From Clostridium sp. AT4 (GTDB lineage: Bacteria > Bacillota > Clostridia > Lachnospirales > Lachnospiraceae): 64,000 bases of DNA. Position numbers and translations under genes: made by a program. Shown in pieces: positions 7,553 through 13,615 of the stretch (within the stretch, counting starts at the first letter, position 1; every line of letters starts with the position of its first letter). Where the stretch lies: assembly GCF_001517625.2 (NCBI RefSeq), contig NZ_LN999828.1, positions 1,132,303-1,196,302 of the forward strand, written 5' to 3'. A model generated the notes under the pieces. The model was not told the origin of the DNA, did no database searches, and was given only the letters and a program-made list of their open reading frames with translations.

Positions 7553-7621
7553 ATAAAAAAGCAGGGACATTCATTTTTAAGCAGAATTTTCTCTGATTTA
7601 AAAATGAACGCCCTTGCTCAT
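7553..7621 (-). promoter_or_regulatory. glt operon leader: ANTAR-type hairpin overlapping an intrinsic terminator
   Basis: Read on the minus strand, the leader starts with ATGAGC / loop AAGGGC / GTTCAT (7621-7604): six base pairs with a closing C-G and a loop with A at position 1 and G at position 4. Its 3' arm and loop also form the left side of a long terminator stem whose right side lies at 7561-7580, followed by a run of T on the minus strand (7553-7560). The two structures are mutually exclusive. A bound ANTAR protein would favour the small hairpin and read-through into gltB1. Structures are read directly; the binding is inference. Confidence 0.75.
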
Positions 7622-7629
7622 ATTCACTA

Positions 7630-7658
7630 TTTATACAGCTCTGAACAGGGTTTGTCAA
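7630..7658 (-). promoter_or_regulatory. Promoter of the glt-glnA-ANTAR operon
   Basis: On the minus strand TTGACA (7658-7653), 17-base spacer, TATAAA (7635-7630). The start site would be near 7623, only a couple of bases before the regulatory hairpin. Its -35 box lies 25 bases from that of the divergent glnN promoter, making a compact two-way control region. Confidence 0.85.
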
Positions 7659-7683
7659 GAGGTTTGTCAGGAGAAAAAAGTGC

Positions 7684-7712
7684 TTGACAAATGATTTTTC
7701 GGGGTGTATTAT
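7684..7712 (+). promoter_or_regulatory. Promoter of the glnN-amt-asnB operon
   Basis: TTGACA (7684-7689), 17-base spacer, TATTAT (7707-7712). The predicted start near 7719 places the regulatory hairpin at about +3. Confidence 0.85.
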
Positions 7713-7721
7713 GCCACACAT

Positions 7722-7781
7722 AAAGGCAAGGATGTCTTTTGCAGCACAGGAAAGGTGCTGTGAAGGACATCCTTGCTTTTT
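7722..7781 (+). promoter_or_regulatory. glnN leader: ANTAR-type hairpin overlapping an intrinsic terminator
   Basis: AAAGGC / loop AAGGAT / GTCTTT forms a six-pair hairpin at 7722-7739 (loop A1 and G4, closing C-G). The same bases from 7726 pair without mismatch with 7740-7776 in a terminator of about 22 pairs with apical loop AGGAAAG, followed by CTTTTTG. The fold is therefore a switch between termination and antitermination. The hairpin stem is identical to that in the pyrG leader. Confidence 0.8.
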
Positions 7782-7815
7782 GTATTAAAAATATGCTGCT
7801 GGAGAGGAGATTGTT

Positions 7816-11674: not shown

Positions 11675-11708
11675 AAAAGGAAACTTAAGATTTTGGAGGT
11701 ATGTTCCT

Positions 11709-13289
11709 ATGTGTTCCATCATGGGTTATTGCAGCCGCAATGCGGTTCTGAGCAGTTTTATGGAAGGATTTCAAAAAACCATATCAAGGGGGCCGGATGA
11801 CAGCAGAGTGGTTGAAACGAGCGATGGAATTCTTGGATTCCACCGATTAGCCATTATGGGCCTGACTCCGTCGGGAATGCAGCCCTTCCGGCTCGGAAAC
11901 AGCTATGTAGTCTGTAATGGAGAAATTTATGGATTTGAGAAGCTGAAAAAAGAGCTGTCAGTAAAATATACGTTTGAAAGCAATTCGGATTGTGAAATTC
12001 TGCTGCCAATGTATCGGGAATACGGCACAGATATGTTTGCCATGCTGGATGCGGAATTTGCCTGCATCCTCTACGATGGGGAAGCAGGGGAGTTTATCGC
12101 AGCAAGAGATCCCATTGGAATCCGCCCACTGTATTATGGATATGATAAAGATCACGCGATCATATTTGCCAGTGAACCCAAAAATCTGACAGGGCTTACG
12201 GACAGGATCATGCCGTTTCCTCCGGGACATTATTATAAAAAGGGACAGTTTATCTGTTACTGCGATATAGCCAAAGTCCATAGGATCTGTTATGATGATC
12301 TGGAAACTGCCTGCGGGAAGATTCATGATAAGCTGGTGGCAGGTGTGGAGAAACGCCTGATAGCAGATGCAAAGGTGGGATTCCTGCTTTCCGGCGGCCT
12401 GGATTCGTCCTTAGTGTGTGCGATTGCAGCAAAGAAAAGCAGCGAGCCGATCAAGACCTTTGCCATCGGAATGAGCGAAGATGCCATCGACTTAAAATAT
12501 GCAAGGCAGGTGGCGGATTATATAGGAAGCGACCATACAGAGGTTTACATGACGCCGGATGAGGTACTGTCCTCTCTGAAAAATGTGATTCAGCTGTTAG
12601 GAACCTATGATATAACCACAATCCGCGCATCCATAGGAATGTATCTGGTGTGTAAGGCAATCCATAACCAGACAGATATCCGAGTTCTTTTAACTGGAGA
12701 GATCTCAGACGAGCTGTTCGGCTATAAATATACAGACTTTGCACCGGACGGGAAGGCTTTTCAGGAGGAATCCCAGAAACGGGTTCGTGAACTGCATATG
12801 TACGATGTACTGCGTGCAGACCGCTGTATTTCTGTAAACTCCCTGGAGGCAAGGGTTCCCTTTGGAGATCTTGATTTCGTAAAGTATGTGATGGCGCTGG
12901 ATCCGGAATTGAAACTGAATACCTACGGAAAGGGAAAATATCTGCTCCGCCATGCCTTCGAACAGGGCGGTTATCTTCCGGACACAATCCTTTGGAGAGA
13001 GAAAGCTGCCTTTTCAGATGCAGTAGGCCATTCCATGGTTGATTATCTGAAGGAATATGCAGAAAGCCAATATACAGATGAAGAATTTAAAAGCAGATGT
13101 GAACGTTATATGTATGCCCGTCCTTTTACAAAAGAGTCATTATTATACAGGGAGATTTTTGAAACTTTCTATCCGGGACAGGCAGAGATGGTAGTTGATT
13201 TTTGGATGCCAAACAAAACGTGGAAGGGATGTAACGTAAATGACCCATCTGCGCGTGTGCTTTCTAACTACGGAGACAGCGGAAAATAA
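11709..13289 (+). CDS. asnB: Asparagine synthase, glutamine-hydrolysing
   Basis: Transfers the amide of glutamine to aspartate. The 526-residue protein has the class II glutaminase N-terminus with catalytic Cys2 ('MCSIMGYCS', 'RGPDDSRVV', 'VCNGEIYGF') and a C-terminal ATP-pyrophosphatase synthetase domain ('FLLSGGLDSSLV', 'GEISDELFGYKY'). TTGGAGGT lies just upstream of the start. Third gene of the glnN operon, 34 bases after amt. Confidence 0.95.
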   Translation: MCSIMGYCSRNAVLSSFMEGFQKTISRGPDDSRVVETSDGILGFHRLAIMGLTPSGMQPFRLGNSYVVCNGEIYGFEKLKKELSVKYTFESNSDCEILLPMYREYGTDMFAMLDAEFACILYDGEAGEFIAARDPIGIRPLYYGYDKDHAIIFASEPKNLTGLTDRIMPFPPGHYYKKGQFICYCDIAKVHRICYDDLETACGKIHDKLVAGVEKRLIADAKVGFLLSGGLDSSLVCAIAAKKSSEPIKTFAIGMSEDAIDLKYARQVADYIGSDHTEVYMTPDEVLSSLKNVIQLLGTYDITTIRASIGMYLVCKAIHNQTDIRVLLTGEISDELFGYKYTDFAPDGKAFQEESQKRVRELHMYDVLRADRCISVNSLEARVPFGDLDFVKYVMALDPELKLNTYGKGKYLLRHAFEQGGYLPDTILWREKAAFSDAVGHSMVDYLKEYAESQYTDEEFKSRCERYMYARPFTKESLLYREIFETFYPGQAEMVVDFWMPNKTWKGCNVNDPSARVLSNYGDSGK

Positions 13290-13521
13290 AATAACCACTC
13301 TTTTTTCTGTATGATCGCTAAAGTTCTGTAATTATTATTAAAATACAGATTCGAAACCCTGTCCCTGTGGCTGGAGCGTCACGCAGTACAATAGGATAAG
13401 GAGATATGTGGAAAGAGTTTTACCATATGGCAAATGACTACGTTGATCATATTACTCTTTCAGACCTGATGGGACAGAATATCCGAAGCGATAGGGCTGA
13501 GCGAATTTCAGAAAAAACGGA
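13290..13521. other. Intergenic region asnB-pyrG
   Basis: 232 bases between the asnB stop and the pyrG promoter. It holds an AT-rich hairpin without a T run (13326-13348, CTGTA/TACAG) and one short reading frame (see next entry). No tRNA or clear terminator was recognised, so asnB transcription may partly run into pyrG. Confidence 0.4.
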
Positions 13522-13525
13522 TTGA
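13406..13525 (+). CDS. Possible 39-residue peptide upstream of pyrG
   Basis: ATG 13406 opens a 39-codon frame beginning MWKEFYHMANDYV and ending inside the pyrG -35 box. AAGGAG (13398-13403) is only two bases from the ATG, which is unusually tight; a second in-frame ATG lies at 13427. Composition is protein-like but no family was recognised. It could be a leftover or chance frame. Confidence 0.2.
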   Translation: MWKEFYHMANDYVDHITLSDLMGQNIRSDRAERISEKTD

Positions 13526-13550
13526 CAAGATAGGGCTTAAGAGGTAGAAT
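13522..13550 (+). promoter_or_regulatory. pyrG promoter
   Basis: TTGACA (13522-13527), 17-base spacer, TAGAAT (13545-13550). The expected start near 13557 places the regulatory hairpin at about +3, as in the glt and glnN leaders. Confidence 0.85.
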
Positions 13551-13559
13551 AGCGTCCAT

Positions 13560-13615
13560 AAAGGCAAAGGCGTCTTTAAGTTTAGATAAACTTAAAGGCC
13601 TCTTTGCCCTTTTTG
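13560..13615 (+). promoter_or_regulatory. pyrG leader: ANTAR-type hairpin overlapping an intrinsic terminator
   Basis: AAAGGC / loop AAAGGC / GTCTTT folds at 13560-13577 (six pairs, loop A1 and G4). From 13563 the same bases pair with 13591-13608 in a long terminator with one C-C mismatch and a four-base AGAT loop, followed by CTTTTTG. Same switch layout as at glnN and glt. Confidence 0.8.

Follow-up and report, generated by a model that had tools for sequence, protein, structure and literature searches.

Single-Hexaloop Leader Hairpins as Probable ANTAR Attenuators of Nitrogen Assimilation and CTP Synthase Genes in Clostridium sp. AT4

Introduction

Can an attenuator governed by an ANTAR protein work with one RNA hairpin, and can such an element join CTP synthesis to ammonium assimilation? 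These questions are raised by a stretch of 64,000 nucleotides from Clostridium sp. AT4 (hereafter the window), in which the leaders of a glutamate synthase (glt) operon, of the glutamine synthetase (GS) gene glnN and of the CTP synthase gene pyrG each begin with a small hairpin carrying A at position 1 and G at position 4 of a six-base loop (A1/G4). Each of these three transcripts is very probably headed by a single-hexaloop ANTAR attenuator; binding by an ANTAR protein, readthrough, the sign of the response and the role of a GS-like protein are what we infer from the leaders and the genes around them.

ANTAR target RNAs with two hairpins are described for Enterococcus faecalis eutP (with EutV), Klebsiella oxytoca nasF (NasR) and Pseudomonas aeruginosa amiE (AmiR) (PMC3369931, PMC8934654). 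In the eut motif, as reported in PMC3369931, the hairpins are separated by a linker of 5-12 nt. According to the account of Walshe et al., one hexaloop is enough for EutV binding, while two, contacted in turn, are required against termination (PMC8934654). NitR, an ANTAR protein of C. saccharobutylicum, is described as inducing GS and glutamate synthase (GOGAT) genes on nitrogen limitation (PMC6316151). In the published descriptions of AmiC-AmiR (PMC3369931, PDB 1qo0) and NasS-NasT (PMC3795266), a ligand-sensing partner restrains the ANTAR protein.

Architecture of the Three Leaders

On the minus strand, the glt leader combines a predicted sigma-A promoter at 7630..7658 (TTGACA, 17 nt, TATAAA), located from the sequence and by a combination scan, with the hairpin ATGAGC(AAGGGC)GTTCAT at 7604..7621, the putative ANTAR site and antiterminator, and an intrinsic terminator followed by a T run at 7559..7619. 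On the plus strand, the glnN leader consists of a predicted sigma-A promoter at 7684..7712 (TTGACA, 17 nt, TATTAT), the hairpin AAAGGC(AAGGAT)GTCTTT at 7722..7739, likewise a putative ANTAR site, and an intrinsic terminator of 26 predicted pairs at 7722..7780. The pyrG leader, also on the plus strand, follows the same plan, with a predicted sigma-A promoter at 13522..13550 (TTGACA, 17 nt, TAGAAT), the putative ANTAR site AAAGGC(AAAGGC)GTCTTT at 13560-13577, which an extra possible pair would extend to 13559-13578 (TAAAGGC(AAAGGC)GTCTTTA), and an intrinsic terminator followed by a T run at 13563..13608.

The six-pair hairpins start 8 nt (glt) or 9 nt (glnN and pyrG) past the -10 hexamer, about 2-4 nt 3' of start sites that are themselves predictions. 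In all three leaders, the left arm of the terminator contains the loop and right arm of the hairpin, and the two structures are mutually exclusive; hairpin and terminator overlap in the leaders of relatives as well. The minimum free energy (MFE) of the leader is -40.9 (glnN), -24.9 (pyrG) and -28.8 (glt) kcal/mol, and that of the hairpin only is -4.2, -4.8 and -4.3 kcal/mol, respectively; when the glnN hairpin is folded alone, loop A1 is additionally predicted to pair with T6. The apical loops of the terminators are AGGAAAG, AGAT and GAAAAT. These leaders had been described in the same terms in an initial annotation of the window: its letters and coordinates for the hairpins, their distance from the predicted start sites, the six-base A1/G4 loops, the C-G closing pairs, the AAAGGC/GTCTTT stem common to glnN and pyrG and the three apical loops agree with the sequence and the scan, and its claim that each hairpin shares bases with the left arm of a terminator, so that the two are exclusive, is reproduced by the MFE folds.

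A combination scan for a promoter, a stem of at least 5 pairs closed by C-G, an A..G loop and an overlapping terminator returned exactly these three elements on both strands of the 64-kb window and none in 30 dinucleotide shuffles. Simpler scans omit individual parts, since a separate promoter scan requiring T at -10 position 6 passes over the glt promoter (TATAAA), and a simple terminator scan passes over the plus-strand pyrG terminator because of one stem mismatch. No leader had a gathering-level match in an Rfam search of the whole window; a permissive Rfam search of positions 7540-7815 gave sub-threshold matches, mostly to microRNA families fitting the long stem.

Conservation and Covariation

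The hairpin was followed through GlnN loci, of which 80 came from named records and the other 30, with the window's own locus (L006) among them, from its family; near-duplicates were retained. A promoter was found in the leaders of 78 of these 110 loci, and in a promoter-anchored, loop-blind count 44 of the 78 had a hexaloop stem of 5 or more pairs close to the start, where 6.7 were expected. Three-, five- and seven-base loops occur at about the chance level, and loops of 4, 8 and 9 bases are raised (24, 29 and 14 against about 7), as would be expected for 4 and 8 bases if the same hairpin gained or lost a pair. A1/G4 is present in 55 of the 60 longest hexaloop hairpins of at least 4 pairs. 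Among 28 gltN leaders, 24 have a promoter, and 19 of these carry a hexaloop stem of at least 5 pairs (3.2 expected); A1/G4 is present in 20 of 22 hexaloop hairpins, and the ATGAGC/GTTCAT stem form recurs in relatives.

Covariation was measured in 62 glnN leaders, with the window's genome excluded, which were chosen by promoter, C-G closing pair and the loop A[AT]NG[AG]N, and with no stem criterion (alignment A3, in which rows L013, L056, L058 and L065 have a mis-set window and gapped cells were set aside). Stem cells changed on both sides number 36, against 16.2 +/- 2.9 in shuffles, and the covariation score is 0.320, against 0.187; none of 500 shuffles reaches either value, although such scores may be inflated by relatedness. 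Sliding the partner by 1-3 columns lowers the score to at most 0.136. The covariation of left arm with right arm is specific to the hairpin, and an earlier alignment, in which a stem criterion was used in selection, agrees. The lower stem is kept by pairing rather than by sequence, as in the dual-hairpin ANTAR motif. Covariation of the small hairpin in relatives, a check set by the initial annotation, is found, with the A1/G4 loop retained.

The Element Upstream of pyrG

A covariance model, R1, was built solely from relatives' glnN leaders, with the window excluded. Its best match in the whole genome is the pyrG leader (44 bits, E 3.3e-6), followed by the glnN leader (36.9 bits, E 1.5e-4), which was the outcome of the covariance-model search that the annotation had proposed as a further check. 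Within the window, R1 gives the glt leader 14.9 bits (E 0.41), and the genome-wide matches do not include it; the glt element is a diverged subtype, and, because the glnN-trained model barely scores it, its support comes from its own orthologues. The other R1 matches in the genome (L119-L121, E 0.96-8) were rejected, as the element scan finds none there; at L120, a promoter-like site stands with a weak resemblance to the element.

Leaders of pyrG were compiled from the window's family (n = 98, from 102 genomes with a PyrG match; G016, G046, G075 and G090 were left out). A1/G4 hairpins with overlapping terminators account for 15 of 28 hexaloop matches with stems of at least 4 pairs, among which G015, G036 and G059 are doubtful, and for 17 of 48 with stems of at least 3; the leaders of G095, G034, G103, G031 and G058, noted by eye or by R1, stand outside these counts. 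The stems differ from one another (CTGAC/GTCAG, GAAGC/GCTTC, TGAAC/GTTCA, AAAGGC/GTCTTT). About five in six family pyrG leaders lack such a hairpin by scan; thus, the element at pyrG is recurrent, not universal.

The gene order of relatives also ties pyrG to ANTAR genes. In nine genera, pyrG lies at most 2 kb from an ANTAR gene, and a GS-like gene either separates or flanks the two; at L255 and L250 a hairpin leader stands 5' of the whole pyrG/GS-like/ANTAR set. Fusions excluded, pyrG and an ANTAR gene lie at most 20 kb apart on the same contig in 28 of the 97 family genomes that have both. In G723, from another family of the class, the same cluster is present minus the amt gene, and pyrG has its own promoter and hairpin. 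In Mediterraneibacter agrestimuris, a leader almost the same as the window's at pyrG stands 5' of purC-purB rather than of pyrG (L036:19501-19610).

In G019 (L181, G019:C13:57500-63000, about 1128-2873 of the minus strand), the C-terminus of CTP synthase is itself an ANTAR domain (PF06418, PF00117 and PF03861). The same PyrG-ANTAR junction is found on a contig fragment of G063 (G063:C72:19818-20117), 91% identical over 100 residues. In each genome, the fused domain is the sole ANTAR domain matched at E <= 1e-5, and both fused genes have a leader with a three-pair A1/G4 hairpin and a terminator. Since the sequence is conserved in two genera, the fusion looks like a real gene. G019 and G063 were the two cases among 80 family genomes searched; a search across the order (392 genomes, E <= 1e-25), a set without a genome known to match, returned none.

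The initial annotation had called the extension of the regulon to CTP synthesis unexpected; it is supported by the recurrence of the hairpin 5' of pyrG across genera, by the gene rows and by the fusions. Alternatively, pyrG alone could be under pyrimidine-nucleotide control, with its hairpin a chance likeness. CTP-responsive attenuation of pyrG exists in Bacillus, and the scarcity of the hairpin among family pyrG leaders would suit this explanation. However, a model trained on glnN leaders has its top match in the genome at the pyrG leader, the share of A1/G4 hairpins with terminators is 15/28, a near-identical leader stands 5' of purC-purB in M. agrestimuris, and gene rows and fusions join CTP synthase to ANTAR, all of which makes purely pyrimidine control extremely improbable.

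Three further sites were seen. At L046:8462, the same element stands ahead of a glutamate dehydrogenase gene (gdhA). In G529 (L281:746 and 816), tandem elements precede a CobB/CobQ-like amidotransferase gene, behind which lie a purC-like gene (recognised by eye) and purA, and at L036:8247 the element precedes a MatE-family gene of just 245 aa.

One Hairpin or Two

The initial annotation had noted no second hairpin with an A1/G4 loop, and had left a one-hairpin variant or a degenerate second site as the options. Apical loops of the terminators, examined in the three elements of the window and 45 of relatives (48 in all), vary from 3 to 10 nt without a consensus, and one is an A1/G4 hexaloop (AACGGA, L059:9925-9976). 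Within about 32 nt, another A1/G4 hairpin with 3 or more pairs occurs downstream in 6 of 104 elements (3.7 expected) and upstream in 4 of 104 (4.5 expected). The absence of a second hairpin is thus upheld, its frequency being at the chance level on both sides, and of the two options the one-hairpin variant fits.

In several relatives, two complete elements stand in series, each with its own terminator, about 60-110 nt apart, and L048 has three hairpins. These serial elements look like tandem attenuators rather than the two-hairpin motif with its 5-12-nt linker.

The canonical two-hairpin target could still be present if the second hairpin (P2) were degenerate or differently shaped, and were represented by the apical hairpin of the terminator. 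Every leader has such an apical hairpin, and that of L059 has the expected loop. Nevertheless, apical A1/G4 at 1/48, apical loops without consensus and neighbouring hairpins at chance frequency led us to reject the canonical motif. Furthermore, 54 of 55 A1/G4 hairpins in glnN leaders start 7-15 nt past the -10 hexamer, leaving no room for an upstream P1. A disguised two-hairpin target is therefore very improbable, and the single-hexaloop attenuator is preferred.

Co-occurrence with ANTAR Genes

In a sample of 120 genomes from 119 genera of the family, R1 matches (E <= 0.05) are present in 64 of 105 genomes with an ANTAR gene and in 0 of 15 without one (Fisher p 3.4e-6). In a class-wide sample, which shares at least two genomes with the family sample, the matches (E <= 0.01) are present in 66 of 143 and 7 of 148 genomes, respectively (p 3e-17); R1 E-values are rough, and the Fisher tests ignore relatedness. 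In the glnN leaders of 12 of the 15 ANTAR-less family genomes (G020, G062 and G072 were not scanned), no hairpin with a terminator was found; among these ANTAR-less genomes, L264 shows a terminator-less hairpin that covers the ribosome site. Presence of the element follows that of the ANTAR gene.

Might the hairpin instead be a by-product of the terminator, or a site for another antiterminator or a ligand-binding RNA, with the ANTAR gene incidental? The right arm of the hairpin is common to both structures, and three class genomes carry elements with ANTAR undetected. On the other hand, the arm covariation belongs to the hairpin, elements and ANTAR genes co-occur, Rfam offers no gathering-level family, and the fixed A1/G4 loop with its C-G closing pair matches the ANTAR site as described in PMC3369931. 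In addition, 18 nt would be small for a metabolite aptamer. Such a by-product or unrelated site is accordingly quite improbable beside the ANTAR attenuator.

One genome of another family in which ANTAR was not detected, G581, contains a promoter and the hairpin ACGGC(AACGGT)GTCGT by eye (L284:690-900), with no close gene. This hairpin runs away from a pyrG gene whose sequence, as far as it was read, is 90% identical to that of the window's pyrG.

The ANTAR Protein and Its Partner

The last gene of the glt row (2319..2909, minus strand) encodes an ANTAR antiterminator protein of 196 aa, in keeping with the place that the initial annotation gave it in the operon. Its ANTAR domain scores 56 bits with PF03861 (E 3.4e-15) against a cut-off of 27.3, and its Pfam receiver domain scores 28.2 bits, under the cut-off of 30.2. 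The structural model shows a receiver fold, a long helix and an ANTAR helical bundle (predicted local distance difference test, pLDDT, 91.4; predicted template modelling score, pTM, 0.71), and RNA-bound EutV (6ww6_B) gave the highest template modelling (TM) score among the 50 Foldseek matches listed, 0.71. Among 25 sequences, K155, E166 and M178 are invariant and H170 is nearly so; by alignment reading, these correspond to the RNA-contact residues Lys149, Glu160, Met172 and Tyr164 of EutV in the numbering used in PMC8934654, several Arg contacts of which differ. The phospho-acceptor position, Asp54 in EutV, is Asn61 in the window's protein, and none of 34 homologues has Asp there, a count that includes duplicates and the copy of the window.

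Immediately 5' of the ANTAR gene lies that of a GS-like protein of 403 aa (2926..4137, minus strand), a putative sensor partner. By sequence, this protein keeps the GS fold and is about 40 residues shorter than matched GS chains; in its flap, CNKAP replaces the GYEAP of GS, so that the flap Glu, which we take to be a catalytic residue of GS, is absent. No acidic residue is found at the flap position in 34 of 40 GS-like homologues (duplicates and the window's copy counted). A GS-like gene adjoins the ANTAR gene in many relatives, and GS-like/ANTAR pairs of this type are found near such leaders in many of them.

A receiver without a phospho-acceptor Asp beside a GS-like partner without a flap Glu argues for a sensing partner rather than a kinase as the source of the signal; judging by these residues, the signal probably comes from the adjacent protein. 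By analogy, the arrangement would resemble that of AmiC-AmiR. We go further only tentatively: the pairing of a presumably catalytically dead glutamine synthetase with a presumably unphosphorylatable ANTAR protein, together with PyrG-ANTAR in two genera, suggests as one possible scheme that in Clostridia the ligand or oligomer state of an enzyme sets readthrough directly at operons for glutamine and nucleotide synthesis.

Proposed Mechanism

By default, the nascent leader would fold into the long intrinsic terminator, and transcription would end ahead of the gene. The first 20 or so nt of transcript would already hold the complete hairpin, ahead of the terminator, and when glutamine or nitrogen is short, the active ANTAR protein, as a dimer, would grip this 5' hairpin by its C-G closing pair and A1/G4 loop on exit from RNA polymerase. 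The gripped hairpin would occupy the left arm of the terminator and so permit readthrough into glt, glnN-amt-asnB or pyrG; with the ANTAR protein inactive or absent, the far more stable terminator would prevail. The regulator is best read as being of the known NitR kind and would most simply be the product of the final gene of the glt row, which, being encoded there, would make the circuit self-amplifying. The signal would pass to it from the adjacent GS-like protein, as from AmiC to AmiR, and a response to nitrogen limitation is the likely sign because NitR is described as inducing GS/GOGAT genes under that condition (PMC6316151). The timing problem that is handled in eut by a recruiting hairpin may be solved here by one hexaloop placed at the 5' end, in overlap with the terminator.

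Several observations tell against this interpretation. In the account given in PMC3369931, induction by EutV in vivo was lowered by changing either hairpin or its A1/G4, and in that of PMC8934654 antitermination was lost when the linker was lengthened. The window's protein does not keep every RNA contact of EutV: Tyr164 is replaced by His170, and Arg142, Arg168, Arg175 and Arg177 differ by alignment reading. Two of the five covariation measures are unexceptional, pairs changed on both sides being equalled in 368 of 500 shuffles and further pair types in 18 of 500. At the thresholds used, R1 has no match in 41 of 105 family and 77 of 143 class genomes with an ANTAR gene, and seven class genomes have an R1 match with the ANTAR gene undetected even at E <= 10 over the cut-off. 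Real-looking elements with promoters are found in three of these ANTAR-less genomes, 5' of glnN in G529, upstream of glnN in G693 and before amt in G499. G529 is 97% complete, with glnN at a contig end, G693 is 99% complete, with the element on a contig of 6.7 kb, and the completeness of G499 is 83%; their ANTAR genes may be unassembled because of the short contigs (G529, G693) or the 83% completeness (G499), or another protein may act on these elements. Of the remaining four genomes, G581 has the promoter and hairpin noted above, with no close gene, G599 has a two-pair hairpin, and G655 and G754 show nothing clear at a nitrogen gene.

The last such observation is a second ANTAR protein in the genome (contig 7, G000:C7:406543-406692, L001). 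It is without a recognisable phospho-acceptor Asp, and its gene is flanked on one side by dapF and on the other by a second GS gene, whose flap is GYDAP, all by eye. This protein could be the binder, or both ANTAR proteins could share the sites, given that the genome has two ANTAR genes where nearly all R1-positive family genomes have one; moreover, of the two, the second is the better match to the fused domain of G019, being the only one listed for this genome. Against this, the window's own ANTAR gene sits in an element-bearing row, GS-like/ANTAR pairs stand near such leaders in many relatives, and no element was found in the row of the second ANTAR gene, its 5' side included, or in that of the second glnN. 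A part for the second protein is consequently rather unlikely, and the product of the glt row is retained as the regulator.

Relation to Known Systems

Like the dual-hairpin ANTAR RNAs as published, the leaders combine an A1/G4 hexaloop on a short stem with intrinsic-terminator overlap, an ANTAR gene in the genome and nitrogen-related genes. Unlike them, they have a single, 5'-terminal hairpin, in which the closing pair is fixed as C-G and the stem may reach 6-8 pairs. The likeness to NitR lies in an ANTAR protein linked to GS and glutamate synthase genes, but, in contrast to NitR targets as described, the element is also found at pyrG here, and at purC-purB and gdhA in relatives.

The receiver-like domain of AmiR is probably not phosphorylated, and the known partner genes of AmiC-AmiR and NasS-NasT adjoin the ANTAR gene. 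The window's protein is similar, its receiver-like domain probably not being phosphorylated and its partner gene lying beside its own. Unlike AmiC and NasS, however, the putative partner here is a GS-like protein, and two genera fuse CTP synthase to ANTAR. A one-hairpin attenuator, a CTP synthase branch and enzyme-like sensors were not found in the open-licence literature searched, although the supplementary tables of PMC3369931 may list some of the leaders.

Natural single-hexaloop attenuators in many Clostridia genera would render the question of one or two hairpins directly testable. The regulon would join ammonium assimilation to CTP synthesis and, in relatives, also to purine synthesis, and the enzyme-like partners point to kinase-free glutamine sensing. 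R1 can be used for annotation, where no Rfam family reaches a gathering score at the leaders.

Gene Organization of the Window

The window's genome (G000) is 3.4 Mb, and its nearest named relative by GlnN is M. agrestimuris (93%). In the nitrogen cluster, the leftward row, on the minus strand, begins with the glt structural genes (4158..7527), assigned by Pfam as class II amidotransferase (6433-7527), glutamate synthase (4928-6433) and GXGXG (4158-4898), and continues with the GS-like and ANTAR genes. The rightward row, assigned likewise on the plus strand, comprises glnN, a type III glutamine synthetase gene (7816..9912), followed at 9956..13289 by an ammonium transporter gene (amt) with P-II fused at the C-terminus (9956-11674) and asparagine synthase (asnB, 11709-13289), which presumably belong to the glnN transcript. 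Then come pyrG, encoding CTP synthase, a glutamine amidotransferase (13639..15246), and a purF-like gene. Elsewhere in the window, at 26867-27172, two Rfam matches (RF02001, RF01998) mark group II intron domains.

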